From Fidelibacterota bacterium TCS55 (GTDB taxonomy: Bacteria; Fidelibacterota; Marinisomatia; Marinisomatales; TCS55): a stretch of DNA of 52,710 nucleotides. The stretch is from contig LSCF01000003.1 in the NCBI GenBank assembly GCA_001577025.1, forward strand, positions 1 to 52,710. The letters are read 5' to 3'. The position numbers and the translations under genes are program-made. Shown here piece by piece: positions 41,755 to 50,116 of the stretch (the first letter of the stretch is position 1; each line of letters starts with the position of its first letter). Under the pieces are notes generated by a model. The model did no database searches. It saw nothing but the letters and a program-made list of their open reading frames with translations, and was not told the origin of the DNA.

Positions 41755-42660
41755 ATGATCCTAGAAACTAACCAGCTGACAAAATCTTTTGGCCTTCGCA
41801 AAGCTGTGGATAATCTTAATCTTGAGATTCCTGAAGGCGCTGTATATGGGTTTTTAGGTCCGAATGGCAGTGGAAAATCCACAACGATCCGGATGATGAC
41901 CGCATTAATCACCCCGGACGAGGGTGAAGTGATTATTCAAGGTAAATCGGTGCAGGCGAATGGTAATACGGCCCTAACTGATGTGGGTGCACTCATCGAG
42001 CGTGCAGATTTTCATAAGCATCTCTCCGGTGAAACGAACCTGAAAATGCTGGCGCGTATGGATGGTACGGATATGTCCAGAGTTCAAATGGTGCTAGATC
42101 GGACTGGGTTGGGCGCCCGGGGAAATGATAAGGTGAAGACCTATTCACAGGGGATGAGACAGCGATTGGGAATCGCCCAAGCCCTTCTATCCAATCCAAA
42201 ATTATTAATTCTGGATGAGCCAACCAATGGTCTTGATCCACAAGGGATGAAAGAAGTACGTGATTTAATCCAAGAATTAGCATCAGAGGGTATTACCATT
42301 TTTATTTCTTCACATCTGCTGGACGAAGTGCAAAAGATATGCTCGCATGTAGCCATGATCAGTTTGGGGAGCCTCATTACTGCTGGGAAGATTGAAGATT
42401 TATTGCGGGATTCAGATTTGCTCTTAACAGAAGTCCATGTGAATAAAGTCGAGGAGGCAGTAAAATTGCTTTCAGATCAATCGTGGATTCACCGCTGTGA
42501 GGCAGAAGATAGTGTTTTGCGTGTTGGTGTTGGCCAAGAGCACATTACAGAAATGGTTCAATTGTTAGTAAAAAACAATATTCAGGTTTCCGCTGTTATT
42601 CCGAAAACCAGTTTAGAAGATTTATATTTATCGAAGCTGGGGACAGAAAGTCAAATCTGA
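41755..42660 (+). CDS. ABC transporter ATP-binding protein (bacitracin-type exporter class)
   Basis: A 301-residue ATPase: Walker A GPNGSGKSTTI, signature YSQGMRQRLGIAQALL, Walker B LLILDEPTNGLD, switch His in ISSHLLDEVQ. The C-terminal extra domain is as in BcrA-like proteins. Its stop overlaps the permease start (TGATG at 42658-42662). The transporter sits between carA and carB; the substrate is unknown. Confidence 0.92.
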   Translation: MILETNQLTKSFGLRKAVDNLNLEIPEGAVYGFLGPNGSGKSTTIRMMTALITPDEGEVIIQGKSVQANGNTALTDVGALIERADFHKHLSGETNLKMLARMDGTDMSRVQMVLDRTGLGARGNDKVKTYSQGMRQRLGIAQALLSNPKLLILDEPTNGLDPQGMKEVRDLIQELASEGITIFISSHLLDEVQKICSHVAMISLGSLITAGKIEDLLRDSDLLLTEVHVNKVEEAVKLLSDQSWIHRCEAEDSVLRVGVGQEHITEMVQLLVKNNIQVSAVIPKTSLEDLYLSKLGTESQI

Positions 42661-43496
42661 TGTTGGGATTGATTCATAACGAATTGCTGGTCATCATCGG
42701 TCGTTGGCGTAGTTATATCGGATTCATTGGTATATCCATTCTCATGCCGCTGATTCTTTGGGGGTTTGTCCACGGTAGTAACGAGCTGCACCAAGATTAT
42801 GTCCGGGAATTGGGCGGTACATTTGTGGTGGTAGGGAATATTTTTAATGCATTTCTGGCCACCTATATCATTATGAATACATTGTGGATTCATATTCCAT
42901 TTTTAATCACTTTGGCCGCCGGGGATTCAGTAGCGGCTGACGGATCCAATGGCATTTTCAGGATTACACTTACTCGATCGGTCAGCCGATTAAAAATTCT
43001 TATTTCAAAATTATTGGCTACCTATATCTATACAGCCGCGCTCCTCATATTTTGTGCATTCTGGAGTCTGGGCGTTGGCAGCTTGGTTTTGGGCACAGGT
43101 GATCTCATTACCATCGATAACGGCATTTTAATTTTAGATGAATCTCAGGCATGGATTCGAATGGCCCTATCATTTGCTTTGGCCATTTTGGTCATGTGTA
43201 CAGTGGCGACCCTTTGTTTTATGTTTTCTGCATTGGTAAATAATGCAGTAGGACCCATTATCGGCACCATGTTTTTAATCATTATCAGTTATATGATTAT
43301 GGGAATCCCATTGGAATTCTTTGAAAAAATTGAGCCCTATCTATTTGTAAAATATTTCAATGTATGGTGGGATGCATTTAAGGATCCAATCCCCTGGGGA
43401 GAGATTGGTAAAAAACTCGGCATTTTGTCACTTTACTCAGCAGGGTTTTTCGGCATCGCAGTAAAAGTGTTTTTAGCAAAGGATATTAAAACATGA
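42660..43496 (+). CDS. ABC-2 family transporter permease
   Basis: A 278-residue protein with about six hydrophobic helices, for example IGFIGISILMPLILWGFVH, ALSFALAILVMCTVATLCF and PIIGTMFLIIISYMIMGI, and the region FRITLTRSVSRLKILISK typical of ABC-2 permeases partnered with BcrA-type ATPases. It overlaps the ATPase stop by one base, and its own stop overlaps the LolA-like gene (ATGA at 43493-43496). Confidence 0.88.
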   Translation: MLGLIHNELLVIIGRWRSYIGFIGISILMPLILWGFVHGSNELHQDYVRELGGTFVVVGNIFNAFLATYIIMNTLWIHIPFLITLAAGDSVAADGSNGIFRITLTRSVSRLKILISKLLATYIYTAALLIFCAFWSLGVGSLVLGTGDLITIDNGILILDESQAWIRMALSFALAILVMCTVATLCFMFSALVNNAVGPIIGTMFLIIISYMIMGIPLEFFEKIEPYLFVKYFNVWWDAFKDPIPWGEIGKKLGILSLYSAGFFGIAVKVFLAKDIKT

Positions 43497-44248
43497 GGCA
43501 TTTATTTATCATTGCTATCATGTGGTCATCGATCGTTTTTGGACAATCCATGACGGTAGAAAAGATTCGGGATAATGTAATTGCACAATTTGAACAGATT
43601 AATGATTATCAGGTGGATATGAAAATATCAGTTAAGATGACAGGTTTTCGTATGCCTAAGAAGAAGATTCGTGTCTATTATAAACGGCCAGATAAAGTGA
43701 AAGTAGAAACGAAAGGATTCGCCATTTTACCCAAGACAGGGGTGGATGGGAATCCCAGTGAGTTTTTGGATATGCTGAAGCATGTAACCGATATTAAGCG
43801 AACCATCCATAACAATTCGCCATACTATAAAATAATGGGCAAGGTTGAACGTGATTCATTAAAGATTCCATTAAATGTAAATAAAAATGAAACACCTGAA
43901 ATCACCATGGATGTATTAGTGGATGCGAAAAAATGGGTCATCACCGAAGTGGACGTTTATTTGGATTCTGAAAGTGTGTTCACCTTTCAAACCGATTATA
44001 CAGAAATAGATGGAATTTATGTTCCGGAGCGTTCCATCTTTAAAATTGGTATCAAAGGAATTAGCAAGTGGTCCGCTGGGAATCCAGTTGATCTAGGCGG
44101 TCCCGGCTCAGAGAGACAAGATTTTGAAGACATGGCAAAAAATGCCGGGTTTGATCCTGAAAAGGATGAATTTGTAGGAGAAATGGTTATGGCCTTCACA
44201 AAATACAAAGTGAATGAAGGAATCGATAACCAAATATTTGAAGAATAG
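43493..44248 (+). CDS. Exported LolA-like (lipoprotein-sorting fold) protein
   Basis: A 251-residue protein with a signal peptide (MRHLFIIAIMWSSIVFGQ) and a LolA/LppX-like half-barrel: FEQINDYQVDMKISVKMTG, KIRVYYKRPDKVKVE, MDVLVDAKKWVITEVDVYLD, FQTDYTEIDGIYVPERSIF. Such proteins carry lipids or lipoproteins through the periplasm. It is fused in translation to the ABC permease, so a system that moves a lipid-like molecule to the outer membrane is the natural hypothesis. Confidence 0.75.
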   Translation: MRHLFIIAIMWSSIVFGQSMTVEKIRDNVIAQFEQINDYQVDMKISVKMTGFRMPKKKIRVYYKRPDKVKVETKGFAILPKTGVDGNPSEFLDMLKHVTDIKRTIHNNSPYYKIMGKVERDSLKIPLNVNKNETPEITMDVLVDAKKWVITEVDVYLDSESVFTFQTDYTEIDGIYVPERSIFKIGIKGISKWSAGNPVDLGGPGSERQDFEDMAKNAGFDPEKDEFVGEMVMAFTKYKVNEGIDNQIFEE

Positions 44249-44260
44249 CAGTAAAGAATT

Positions 44261-47200
44261 ATGCCAAAACGAAACGACATTGAATCCATATTAATTATTG
44301 GCGCCGGTCCCATCATTATCGGTCAGGCCTGTGAATTTGATTATTCCGGCACTCAAGCCACCCGGGCTTTGAAGGAGGAAGGTTACAGGGTTATCCTGGT
44401 GAACTCCAATCCTGCCACGATTATGACCGATCCAAATTTGGCGGATGCAACATATATTGAGCCAATTACTTCAGAGTATGTTGAGGCCATTATTCAAAAA
44501 GAAAAGCCAGACGCTATTCTCCCAACCGTGGGCGGACAAACCGGTCTGAATATTGCTATGGACCTGCACCGGGAAGGTATTCTGGAAAAGTATGGGGTCC
44601 AGCTTATTGGGGCTCAGGTAGATGCCATTGACAAGGCGGAGGATCGTGAACGATTTAAAGAAGCCATGGATGCGGTAGGTATTGATACAGCGATAGGTGG
44701 TTTCATCAACTCTTGGGATGAAGCGGAAGCCCACCTTGATAAAATGCAATTTCCCATCATCATTCGGCCATCTTTTACCATGGGCGGCACCGGTGGTGCA
44801 GTAGCATATAATTATGAAGAATATCAAAAATTGGTGGAGAATGGCCTGAATGCGAGCCCTATTAATGAAGTGCTAATTGAAGAATCTTTGCTGGGATGGA
44901 AGGAATTTGAACTGGAAGTCATCCGGGATAAGGCTGATAATGCCATCATCATTTGTTCCATTGAAAATTTTGATCCAATGGGGGTTCACACAGGAGATTC
45001 AGTAACCGTTGCACCGGCTATGACACTCACCGATAAAGAATTCCAACAGATGCGAAATTGGGCCATCCTTTGCTTGCGAACTATTGGCGTTGAAACGGGC
45101 GGTTCCAATGTACAATTTGCAGTTAATCCTGAAAATGGCCGCATGATTATTATTGAGATGAACCCACGCGTGAGTCGGTCATCTGCGTTGGCATCAAAAG
45201 CGACAGGATTCCCCATTGCCAAAGTGGCAGCAAAGCTGGCAGTTGGATTTACTTTGGATGAACTACCCAACGACATTACCGGGAAAACTTTGGCAGCGTT
45301 TGAACCCACCATTGACTATATAATAACCAAAGTGCCTCGATTTGATTTTGAAAAATTTCCATCCGCTTCAGGACATTTAGGTGTGCAGATGCAAAGTGTG
45401 GGCGAAGTGATGTCTATTGGTCGCACATTCAGAGAGTCAGTGCAAAAAGCATATCGTTCTTTAGAAGTTGGGTTGGATGGACTAGAGCCTAAACCGGCGG
45501 CAGAAGGGGATCCGGATGTTAATCGAGCACGATCATTGGATATGTCCACCTTGCGGTATGGAACGTCATTCCGGTTGTTAAAAGTCCGTCAAGCACTTGT
45601 CGAGGGGCAATCTATTGAGGATGTGTTTAATGTAACAAAAATTGATCCATGGTTTTTAAATCAAATTAAAATGTTGGTAGATATGAATAATGTAGAGACG
45701 CTTAGCAATGCGTCTTTACGTAAATTAAAACACAATGGATTTTCTGATCGACAAATCGGACGGATGATAGGAAAAAAAGAAAAAGAGATTCGTGCGCAAC
45801 GCCATGATGAATCGGTTCATCCTTCTTACAAAGTTGTAGACACTTGTGCAGCTGAATTTGAAGCCCAGACGCCATATTGTTATTCAACTTATGATGAAGA
45901 AAATGAAATCATGCCCTTAGAGGGGAAGAAAGTGATCATTTTGGGCGGTGGCCCTAATCGAATAGGCCAAGGCATAGAATTTGATTATTGCTGTGTTCAG
46001 GCTGTATTTGGACTAAAGGATCAAGGCTATAAAACCATTATGGTCAATTGTAATCCGGAAACTGTCAGCACAGACTTTGACTTAGTGGATCGTCTCTATT
46101 TTGAACCGGTCACATTTGAAGATGTTTTGAATATTGTTGAATTTGAAAAACCCGAGGGTGTTTTGGTGCAGTTTGGTGGTCAAACACCTTTAAAAATCGC
46201 AAATGCCTTGGCTGATGCCGGTGTTCCAATCATTGGTACGTCTCCGAAAAATATTGATCTGGCAGAAGACCGGGAGAAATTCGGCACCATTCTAAAAAAG
46301 CTAAAGATAGTATGTCCCCAATACGGCACGGGACGAACTCTGGATGAAGTGGTGTCTGTGGCCGAAAAAATTGGATTTCCTGTTCTAGCCCGTCCCAGTT
46401 ATGTCCTGGGAGGGAGAGCCATGGAAATCGTTTATTCAAAAGAACAGTTGATTGATTATATTTCTCGAAATGCTGATGTAACAGAAGGTCATCCCATATT
46501 GATCGATGAATTCTTAGAGGATGCCTTCGAATTTGATGTGGATGCCCTATGTGATGGTGAAACGGTGCACATCGGAGCAGTAATGCAGCATATTGAAGAA
46601 GCGGGGATTCACTCCGGGGATTCGGCCTGTGTATTGCCTCCGTACCGAATCACAACTGATGCCATGGATGAAATCATTCGAATTGCAAAAGCATTAGCCC
46701 TTGAACTAAAGGTTATTGGTCTCATCAATTTGCAATTCGCATATAAAGATGGCCAGGTCTATGTACTGGAAGTCAACCCAAGAGCGAGTCGGACAGTGCC
46801 GTTTGTAAGTAAAACTACTGATGTTCCCCTTGCTCGGATTGCTTCCCAATTGGCAGTAGGTGCAAAACTATCCAAATTTAAATTAAAATCCTGGGACGAA
46901 AATTCTCATGTGGCGGTAAAGGAAGCCGTGCTGCCATTTAATAAATTTCCAGAAGAATCCATTTTTTTAAGCCCGGAAATGAAATCCACCGGTGAAGTGA
47001 TGGGTATATCCAATTCAATGGGAGAGTCATTTCGACGGGCCTCCATCAGTGCCGGGAATAAGGTCCCCAATTCCGGAACCGTATTCATTTCAGTAAACGA
47101 TGGGGACAAGTTGGACATTATTCCCATCGCCCGCGATCTGAATGAAATTGGTTTTAAACTGATTGCCACATCAGGAACGGCCAAAGAACTAAAACGAAAT

Positions 47201-47464
47201 GGTCTCCCTGTGGAATCTGTATTTAAAGTGGGTGAAGGACGGCCAAATGTACTGGATGGGATCAAAAATGGAGAGGTGAATTTGGTGATCAACACGCCAA
47301 TGGGTGCTCAGGCACGTTATGATGAGGAGTCCATTGGTCGGGCCTGTATCCAAAAAGGAATTGAAGCCATCACCACACTATCCGGGGCAGAAGCAGCTGT
47401 GCGGGCCATCCGTTTGGGCGGAAGAAAAATTCAGGTAAAATCAATTCAAGAATACCATATTTAG
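44261..47464 (+). CDS. carB: Carbamoyl-phosphate synthase large subunit
   Basis: 1067 residues, full length. Two homologous ATP-grasp halves are visible: [20 protein letters not shown] and [20 protein letters not shown] for the pre-ATP domains, [16 protein letters not shown] and [16 protein letters not shown] for the nucleotide loops, [17 protein letters not shown] and [17 protein letters not shown] for the metal-binding loops. A C-terminal MGS-like allosteric domain (from about 935, [11 protein letters not shown] to the end) binds regulators in known enzymes. It uses ammonia from CarA with bicarbonate and two ATP. It lies 12 nt after the LolA-like gene. Confidence 0.98.
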
Positions 47465-47467
47465 GTG

Positions 47468-47499
47468 TTGGTTTACATTGAAAATATCCTTTAGCTTTG
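47468..47499 (+). promoter_or_regulatory. Candidate Bacteroidetes-type promoter before the arginine leader
   Basis: TTG (47468-47470), 21 nt, TAGCTTTG (47492-47499), fitting the TTG…TAnnTTTG pattern of Bacteroidetes housekeeping promoters. A start would fall near 47503-47507, leaving the leader ATG almost leaderless, which would explain the missing Shine-Dalgarno sequence. The match is short and may be chance; read-through from carB is the alternative. Confidence 0.3.
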
Positions 47500-47506
47500 T
47501 GCCGTT

Positions 47507-47575
47507 ATGTTAAAACTTCGACGAAATAATAGACAGAATCGCCGCCGCTCCAATCATTTGGGGGGACACCGGTAA
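47507..47575 (+). CDS. Arginine-rich leader peptide of the argGH attenuator
   Basis: A 22-codon frame starting MLKLRRNNRQNRRR and ending GGHR, followed by TAA at 47573-47575. Seven of 22 codons are Arg (R5, R6, R9, R12, R13, R14, R22), including a CGC-CGC-CGC run at 47540-47548. It lies just after carB and before a strong intrinsic terminator ahead of argG, the layout of amino-acid-attenuated operons such as his, trp and leu. The codons for L18-G19-G20 hold the GGGGGG that pairs with the terminator's 5' arm. No clear ribosome-binding site precedes it. It would sense charged tRNA-Arg by ribosome stalling. Confidence 0.72.
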   Translation: MLKLRRNNRQNRRRSNHLGGHR

Positions 47576-47627
47576 GGTCTATCAATACGTCATAAAAAAA
47601 TAGAATTTGATAAAAGCCCCCCGGATG
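47555..47627 (+). promoter_or_regulatory. Antiterminator helix of the arginine attenuator
   Basis: Bases 47555-47565 (CATTTGGGGGG) can pair with 47617-47627 (CCCCCCGGATG) in an unbroken 11-bp helix: six G-C, two G-U and three further Watson-Crick pairs. It uses the 5' arm and loop of the terminator, so the two structures exclude each other. A ribosome stalled at the CGC run (47540-47548) leaves the first strand free; one that reaches the stop at 47573 covers it. Confidence 0.65.
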
Positions 47628-47647
47628 TTCCGGCGGGCTTTTTTTTT
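47612..47647 (+). terminator. Intrinsic terminator/attenuator upstream of argG
   Basis: Stem 47612-47625 with 47629-47642 (5' arm AAAAGCCCCCCGGA, 3' arm TCCGGCGGGCTTTT), 14 positions with one internal C-C mismatch, loop TGT, and a run of nine T at 47639-47647. It lies 23 bases before the argG start, too close to be only the carB terminator. Confidence 0.92.
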
Positions 47648-47670: not shown

Positions 47671-48933
47671 ATGAATAAAGAGAAAATCATATTAGCATAT
47701 AGTGGCGGTTTAGATACCTCCATTATTTTAAAATGGTTGGTGAATAAAGGATATGAGGTCATTTGTTTTATTGGTGACGTGGGGCAGAAAGATGACTTCA
47801 AAGCTGTAGAAGAAAAAGCAATGGCTTTAGGTGCCTCCAAAGTATACATCAAGAATTTGCAAAAGGAATTTGTTACCGGTTATATTTTTCCGGCTTTGCA
47901 GGGAAATGCCCTTTATGAAGGTCGGTATCTGTTGGGAACATCCTTGGCTCGGCCGGTGCTTGCCAAAGCGCAAATTGATATTGCCCATGAAGAAGGTGCC
48001 ACCATTGTTTCCCATGGATCCACAGGGAAAGGTAATGACCAAGTTCGGTTTGAACTGGCTTACTATGCTTTGGATCCAAAAATTGGAGTCTTTTCACCGT
48101 GGAAGGATGTGGAATTTTTAGATCAATTTAAAGGGCGGAATGATTTGCTGGCATATGCTGATGAATGGGATATCCATGTGACGGCTACTAGGGAAAAGCC
48201 TTATAGTGAAGATGAAAACCTCATGCATATCAGTCATGAAGCCGGCGTATTGGAAGATCCCTCATCCCGCCCAGATGCCTCTGTATTCAGCATGACAAAT
48301 GGCATCGGCGATGCACCGGAGAAAGAATCGATTCTTGAAATTGAATTCAAGGATGGTATCCCAACCCAGATATCAAATTTAGATGATGGCACAGTAAAGA
48401 CAGATGGGTTGGATATGTTTCTTTATTTAAATGAAATGGGCAGTCTCCATGGAATTGGCCGTATCGATATGGTAGAAAACCGTTTCATTGGCATTAAATC
48501 TCGAGGAGTATATGAAACCCCAGGAGCAACCATCCTCTGGGAAGCCCACCGAGATTTAGAAGGGATTGCCATGGATAAAGAAGTGATGCACATTCGAGAT
48601 GGTCTCATTCCAAAATTCGCTGAATTGATATACAATGGATTTTGGTTTTCACCAGAAATGGATTTCTTGCTCACCTGCATCGCCAAGAGCCAAGAAGCGG
48701 TAGACGGTACAGTTCGAGTCGCCTTATTAAAAGGAAACGTCATTTCAATCGGACGTGAATCTCCCACTTCGCTCTATGATCAGGATATGTCCAGCATGGA
48801 TATTGAAGGAGGATTTGATGCGACCGATTCCCAAGGATTCATCAATATCAATGCCATTCGATTGAAAGCTCATAATTATGTTTTACAAAAAAGAAATCCA
48901 TACAAATGGAGGAAGGAAATCAGTAATGAGTAA
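47671..48933 (+). CDS. argG: Argininosuccinate synthase
   Basis: 420 residues, normal length. The ATP pyrophosphatase motif is [12 protein letters not shown] near the N-terminus. Further conserved segments are [36 protein letters not shown] and SRGVYETPG. It joins citrulline and aspartate using ATP. AAGAG lies before the ATG. It is the first full gene after the arginine attenuator and its stop overlaps the argH start region, so both are controlled together. Confidence 0.98.
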
Positions 48934-50116
48934 ACTTTGGGAAAAAGGTGTTTCACTGGATAAAGCCATTGAATCTTTTACTGTGGGAAATGATCCTGAA
49001 TTGGATCAAGTTTTGGTCCCCTACGATTGTAAAGCATCAAAAGCGCATGCGAATATGTTGGGGCAGAAGGGGTACCTTACCGATGAAGAAGTGAATCAGC
49101 TGATTTCAGCATTAGACCAAATTATCCGTCGTCATGAAAATGGTGAATTCAACATAGACATTTCCCAAGAAGATTGTCACACGGCCATTGAAGAATGCCT
49201 TGTAGAAGCCTTGGGTGAAATGGGTAAGAAAATTCATACGGCCCGATCCCGGAATGATCAAGTATTGACAGCACTTCGTCTCTATTACAAAGATGAATTG
49301 AGCGAAATCAATTCCCTTGCAAAAGCATGGATAGATGTGTTGACCCAATGCGGTGAGGAACACCAGGAAGTAGACTTTCCCGGATATACCCATATGCAAA
49401 AAGCCATGCCCTCATCCATCTCCATGTGGGCAAGTGCATATGCAGACTGTATGAAAGATGATGTCAACTCATTGATAATGGTTGCGTCTTTAATTGATCA
49501 ATCACCTTTGGGATCGGCAGCGGGATATGGTGTATCCATTGAAATTGATAAGGACATGACTGCAAAGGAATTGGGTTTTTCAAAGGTACAAGAGAACCCA
49601 ATTTATTGTCAATTGAGCCGGGGAAAATTTGAGTTGGCTTTGCTCCAGGCATTCAATCAGGTATTACTTACAATTAACCGATTGGCTTCAGATTTAATCC
49701 AATTTTCTATGTCTGAATTTGGTTATTTCTCACTACCGGAAGAATTCTGTACCGGAAGTTCAATCATGCCTCAGAAGAAAAACCCGGATGTATTGGAACT
49801 CCTTAGAGGCAGTTATCACATTCTCTTGGGATATGAGACACAGGTCAAAACGATTACATCCAATCTCATTTCAGGATATAATAGGGATATTCAATTATCG
49901 AAAGAGCCAGTAATGCGGAGTATCAAGTTAGCGAAAGATTGTTTGGGGATTTCGGCCGCAGTTGTTTCTGGGTTGTCCGTCAATAAGGATAAATGCAAAG
50001 CAGCTATGACCGGCGAATTGTATGCCACAGAAAAAGCGTATGAAATGGTGAAAGAAGGGGTTCCCTTTAGGGAAGCCTATAAAAAGGTGGCGGAATTACT
50101 CCGAGAGGGAGATTAG
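48926..50116 (+). CDS. argH: Argininosuccinate lyase, short form
   Basis: The start is at 48926 (396 residues): the ATG overlaps the end of argG and is preceded by GGAGGAAGGA. The frame back to 48878 lies inside argG. The family signature is [20 protein letters not shown]; other conserved parts are [17 protein letters not shown] and [18 protein letters not shown]. It splits argininosuccinate to arginine and fumarate. Most ArgH proteins have about 450 residues or more; this one stops right after [13 protein letters not shown], without the usual C-terminal extension. Its last 21 bases overlap aroQ on the other strand. Confidence 0.96.

Follow-up and report, generated by a model that had tools for sequence, protein, structure and literature searches.

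A probable arginine attenuator ahead of argG, and leaders with Arg and His codons on his-argG operons, in the phylum Neomarinimicrobiota

We analyzed a 52.7-kb stretch of DNA (hereafter the window) from a member of Neomarinimicrobiota, an uncultured, marine phylum, in which a short Arg-rich reading frame and an intrinsic terminator precede argG. Judged by sequence comparison, this locus is very probably (about nine chances in ten, by our estimate) an attenuator of the classical kind, in which a translating ribosome responds to the supply of charged Arg-tRNA and thereby governs transcription of argG(H). The mechanism is the one known from trp and his; what appears new is the use of arginine, the Arg+His leaders found on his-argG operons, the probable near-leaderless start, and the phylum. 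Arginine synthesis is a textbook case of repressor control, and over much of this phylum an RNA switch seems to replace the repressor, which would show the exchange of one regulator for another. Leader-peptide control would, in addition, reach into a phylum without cultured members.

The argG leader in the window

A hairpin scan of both strands of the window yielded 20 terminator-like hairpins, and positions 47507-47647 held the only convincing combination of a leader ORF and a terminator; the one further match was a weak, Arg-poor ORF ahead of a terminator. A preliminary description of this DNA had claimed three parts here: a 22-codon leader with seven Arg codons, including CGC-CGC-CGC; a strong terminator with nine T, 23 nt ahead of argG; and an 11-bp alternative helix. 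All three are present exactly as described (Table 1). Hairpin AAAGCCCCCCGGATGTTCCGGCGGGCTTT occupies 47613-47641 and the nine T 47639-47647, with the argG ATG (47671) 23 nt downstream. The CATTTGGGGGG/CCCCCCGGATG duplex comprises 11 bp, two of them G-U, at -20.8 kcal/mol. With Arg at 7 of 22 codons ahead of argG(H), the codon cluster matches the genes that would be controlled. Two further features had escaped the preliminary description. One is a conserved 1:2 hairpin, which completes the three-helix design; the other is a C x C mismatch inside the terminator stem, where the C of the 5' arm can pair with a G of region 2 but faces another C in the 3' arm. No Shine-Dalgarno sequence was seen upstream of the leader ATG in the window.

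Table 1. Features of the argG leader locus in the window, and Arg+His leaders in other genomes.
Feature	Position	Strand	Detail
carB, upstream neighbor	44261-47464	+	ORF; also next to the leader in related loci
Promoter of leader (probable)	47468-47499	+	TTGGTT at 47468-47473; 21 nt after TTG, TAGCTTTG at 47492-47499, 7 nt before ATG
Leader ORF MLKLRRNNRQNRRRSNHLGGHR	47507-47575	+	22 codons, 7 Arg: ATG TTA AAA CTT CGA CGA AAT AAT AGA CAG AAT CGC CGC CGC TCC AAT CAT TTG GGG GGA CAC CGG TAA
CGC CGC CGC, predicted stalling codons	47540-47548	+	RRR kept in relatives, third positions vary
Region 1, CTCCAA, of 1:2 hairpin	47548-47553	+	Pairs with TTGGGG at 47558-47563; compensatory changes in relatives
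Region 2, CATTTGGGGGG, antiterminator 5' strand	47555-47565	+	Within last leader codons; duplex with 47617-47627
Intrinsic terminator, AAAGCCCCCCGGATGTTCCGGCGGGC + 9 T	47613-47647	+	Stem changes compensatory at three positions in relatives
Region 3, CCCCCCGGATG, part of terminator	47617-47627	+	Pairs with region 2
argG, argininosuccinate synthase, putative regulated gene	47671-48933	+	TIGR00032, 459 bits, over cut-off
argH, argininosuccinate lyase (which we take it to be from its translation)	48878-50116	+	Longest ORF; true start probably further downstream
Arg+His leaders before hisG	G014:C95 (L197), G124:C56 (L199), G128:C10 (L200), G129:C37 (L198), G108:C5 (L271), G067:C150 (L259)

Folding of the region had a z-score of -2.3, and the window antiterminator taken alone was only moderately better than shuffles (29/500). 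The strong case against chance comes from the comparisons set out below.

The genome that contains the window (G000, a 92% complete draft) encodes argF, argG, argH, and carAB. Neither argC nor hisG was found in it, so this organism probably makes arginine from ornithine or citrulline and takes up histidine. In the window, carA and carB are separated by two genes of an ABC transporter and one lipoprotein-carrier-like gene (41755-44248).

Promoter and predicted mechanism

A conserved promoter-like element lies just upstream of the leader start, and was missed by the preliminary description. The pattern scored was TTG-N(18-22)-TAnnTT, with its last base 5-9 nt upstream of the leader ATG, and it was chosen after inspecting the sequences; over 16 lineage representatives its summed score was 95, compared to 68.6 ± 3.4 for shuffled sequences (0/1000). 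In 12 of the 16, the TAnnTT element ends 5-8 nt upstream of the leader start codon. It resembles the TAnnTTTG element of Bacteroidota. Because the conserved promoter ends so close to the start codon, the transcript probably has next to no untranslated sequence ahead of the leader ORF. The same element argues against read-through from carB as the sole source of the transcript, which we had considered.

From this arrangement, we infer a transcription start, leader translation, stalling, termination, and a response to arginine. Transcription would start just ahead of the leader AUG, and a ribosome would enter the Arg-rich leader at once. With ample Arg-tRNA, the ribosome would reach the stop codon and cover region 2 (GGGGGG), the terminator would form, and argG would be off. 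With scarce Arg-tRNA, the ribosome would stall on the CGC run and cover region 1, region 2 would stay free to pair with the 5' arm of the terminator while the 3' arm is still to be transcribed, and RNA polymerase would continue into argG.

In modeled nascent RNA, the mean pairing of the terminator 5' arm was 0.68 when the ribosome was placed on the Arg run and 0.29 when it was placed on the stop codon. The corresponding folding energies for the window were -22.9 and -0.7 kcal/mol; part of this gap comes from the greater length of RNA left exposed in the first state. At equilibrium, the terminator still wins in the complete window RNA with a stalled ribosome (0.85). This suggests that the switch must be kinetic, that is, decided during transcription, as in other attenuators.

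Conservation of the leader in the window's family

These organisms are known through draft metagenome assemblies. In the window's family (f1), the leader stands directly before argG in eight of ten argG-bearing genomes: the window and seven relatives that share its arrangement, from the same genus (G015, G021-G024) and from other genera (G008 and G031). A covariance model (R1) built from these eight leaders was searched against 245 genomes and recovered its eight members at 94-157 bits, with the next match at 47.5. The matches below 48 bits beyond f1 were mostly plain terminators and were not accepted as members by themselves; they led to the dual Arg+His leaders described below.

The RRR block is encoded in f1 as CGC CGC CGC, CGC CGT CGA, CGA CGA CGC, CGA CGC CGT, or CGG CGC CGT, and G031 retains two of the three Arg. 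In the terminator stem (3:4), relatives show G-C/A-T, T-A/A-T/T-G, and G-C/A-T at three positions. The fourth pair of the antiterminator (2:3), G-C in the window, is replaced by A-T in four of the relatives and is not formed in the other three, and the 1:2 helix CTCCAA/TTGGGG has A-T/C-G and C-G/T-A changes. The helices of classical attenuation (1:2, 2:3, and 3:4) all carry compensatory changes within f1. The preliminary description had proposed aligning related intergenic regions as a check, and the alignment bears it out, both in these helices and in Arg codons that are kept as their third positions vary. Taken singly, the f1 antiterminators are only modestly better than shuffles, and that of L054 is not better at all.

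Arg leaders and ArgR across the phylum

Among the 245 Neomarinimicrobiota genomes searched, argG was found in 64, and in nearly all of these we could inspect the sequence ahead of the gene. An Arg-rich leader with a terminator stands directly before argG in 19 genomes of families f1, f10, f20, and f30 (for example, the peptides MVERRRQVRRSRTPRQNWRFRGIL in f10, MRSDRRHSQLRRRGTETMVRSRAG in f20, and MTRHMNLTIIRRRRPSLEGTGV in f30); G186 has two argG copies, with a separate leader for each. In f10, f20, and f30 too, the last leader codons are complementary to the 5' arm of the terminator. We scored this antiterminator pairing against dinucleotide shuffles (500 per leader). Eight leaders outside f1, including the Lys-rich G100 leader, reached z-scores of -3.7 to -6.7 (0-1/500 shuffles); the pairing was moderate in L084 and L085 and weak in L068, L071, and L107. 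In every leader analyzed, a strong intrinsic terminator with a T-run follows 22-42 nt past the leader stop codon, and strong terminators are confined to the argG loci that have leaders.

These loci bear on the possibility that the hairpin merely terminates the carB transcript and that the Arg-rich ORF arose by chance. In the window, carB ends (47464) only 42 nt ahead of the leader ORF, and the hairpin would stop carB transcripts too. However, argG retains both leader and terminator in f20 and f30, where carB was not found upstream; RRR is retained in f1 despite its varying third positions; antiterminator pairing recurs in unrelated sequence; and the leaderless argG loci have no strong terminator. 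We therefore regard a plain carB terminator as very improbable.

Compared by eye, leaders of different families share little beyond their Arg runs, which suggests that the architecture was kept, or rebuilt, as the sequence changed. The leader peptide is conserved within the window's genus, as would be expected if the ORF encoded a small basic protein with its own function, but nothing except the Arg runs is retained between families, the antiterminator strand is formed by the last codons, and the composition shifts to Arg+His in his-argG operons. We consider the chance of such a protein close to negligible. The preliminary description had read the locus as a classical attenuator of the trp/his type; this reading gains support from the covariation in f1, from the unrelated leaders of the same architecture in other families, and from the distribution of ArgR.

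ArgR (PF02863) was detected in 23 of the 245 genomes, all of them argG-bearing members of families f23, f27, and f29, where it mostly adjoins argG; the phylum is mostly without it. No leader was found in any of the 22 ArgR genomes with readable DNA upstream of argG, and PF02863 had no match in the window's genome (at 92% completeness) or in any leader-bearing genome. Fisher's exact test for this exclusion gives 1e-7, which overstates the evidence because leader and ArgR both follow family lines, such that there are fewer events than genomes. Twelve argG-bearing genomes had neither ArgR nor leader that we could find.

None of the 30 argG loci inspected in candidate division KSB1 and relatives has an Arg leader with a terminator, and no leader was found directly before argC (15 loci) or argF (three loci). 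An Rfam search of the leader region gave only sub-threshold matches, including His_leader (RF00514; 20.6 bits, gathering score 49) and Trp_leader (RF00513; 15.2 bits, gathering score 41), and a T-box covariance model had no match up to E = 5.

Comparison with known systems

In the his and trp attenuators of enterobacteria, a short ORF is rich in consecutive codons for the amino acid that the operon makes, three helices exclude one another, and an intrinsic terminator precedes the first gene. The argG leader is like them in its codon run, three exclusive helices, and terminator, but it has Arg codons and a different sequence, places region 2 inside the ORF, is apparently near-leaderless, and belongs to a different phylum. 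The mycobacterial polycysteine attenuators have a leader ORF with a cysteine codon run on a leaderless mRNA (Canestrari et al. 2020, as described in PMC9031893) and no obvious terminator hairpin (PMC1262725). The argG leader shares with these a near-leaderless start (predicted) and an amino-acid-specific codon run; unlike them, it uses Arg and has a strong terminator.

Two published leaders sense arginine. In Salmonella ORF34-speF, consecutive Arg codons do so to control polyamine synthesis via Rho and RNase G (PMC6386406); the argG leader also has consecutive Arg codons, but precedes genes of arginine synthesis and has an intrinsic terminator. In Staphylococcus aureus, the Arg-codon leader rbfL senses arginine shortage and covers the ribosome-binding site of a biofilm regulator, which blocks translation (PMC13009471); Arg codons are common to both, and rbfL is without a terminator switch. 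With such precedents, the argG leader could sense Arg and act mainly via nascent-peptide arrest, translational coupling, or Rho-dependent termination. We give this a small chance, given the strong intrinsic terminator and T-run in every leader analyzed and, for an arrest peptide, how little besides Arg runs is shared between families.

Compared to ArgR, the predicted argG attenuator would serve similar genes and respond to a similar signal, but ArgR is a DNA-binding protein and was not found in the leader genomes. Attenuators for other amino acids have been described (PMC1262725, PMC2965389), and a 2010 survey, which added a Firmicutes case of its own, knew of no earlier leader-peptide control beyond Proteobacteria and Actinobacteria (PMC2965389). 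In the open-access literature, we found no description of an attenuator for arginine synthesis, nor of an Arg+His version.

Leader codons and operon content

In G014, G067, G108, G124, G128, and G129, argG lies downstream of hisI within the his operon, although in G128 leader and argG are on separate contigs, and in G108 hisI and argG are separated by one more reading frame, which appears to be broken. The leaders of these six operons, which the preliminary description had not noticed, combine Arg and His codons: MNMRRRHNHYHR..., MKYNRRHHHN..., MAQRRRMHHHHH..., MNMRRRHNHHHH..., MNIRRRHNHHHR..., and MNMRRRHNHHHQ.... RRR together with a His run is present in five of the six, and RRR in none of the roughly 40 other his leaders, which have His runs. 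Fisher's exact test gives 4e-6 (with 0/40 for the other leaders) but overstates independence, because four of the six his-argG leaders are mutually homologous.

The closest contrast comes from G013, of the same genus as G014, in which no argG was found: its leader has CAA CGC CAA where G014 has CGA CGC CGA. The his-argG leaders represent an evolutionary experiment, in which the Arg run goes with argG and two of three Arg codons are Gln codons in a sister without it, and which makes selection of leader codons by operon content directly testable. Two cases are less clean: G068 has the leader of G067 with no argG found, and its contig ends early; G145 has a leader with RR, and again no argG was found.

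Overall, the predicted leaders match their genes, with Arg codons before argG, Arg+His before his-argG, and His before other his operons. It seems fairly likely that, in Neomarinimicrobiota, leader-peptide attenuation took over several amino-acid operons, with near-leaderless leader ORFs, and that operon rearrangement brings a matching change in leader codons (Arg with argG, Arg+His with his-argG, His with his, and Lys with lysW). The leader of a fused operon would then be a natural two-amino-acid sensor, answering a shortage of either.

Most his operons of the phylum have a leader peptide with a His run, followed by a terminator, ahead of hisG (about 40 loci, among L207 and L215-L273), in families f1, f5, f10, f11, f13, f20, f23, f27, f29, and f30.

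Lys-rich leaders were also observed. G188 and G189 (L195, L196), found via R1, have the Lys-rich leader MLVTIYKSKQSAKAKKLGTARNPRAAVL, a terminator, and a strong antiterminator before lysW, upstream of argC; this may be a Lys attenuator. In the low-GC genomes G099 and G100 (L124:927-980, L099, L103), a Lys-rich leader with almost no Arg (MGIILNQLKRKKNSKKK) precedes argG-argH-lysW-argX-argC..., which may reflect either drift to AT or a change in the amino acid sensed. A second leader-like ORF with a terminator lies before lysW at L124:3540-3690.
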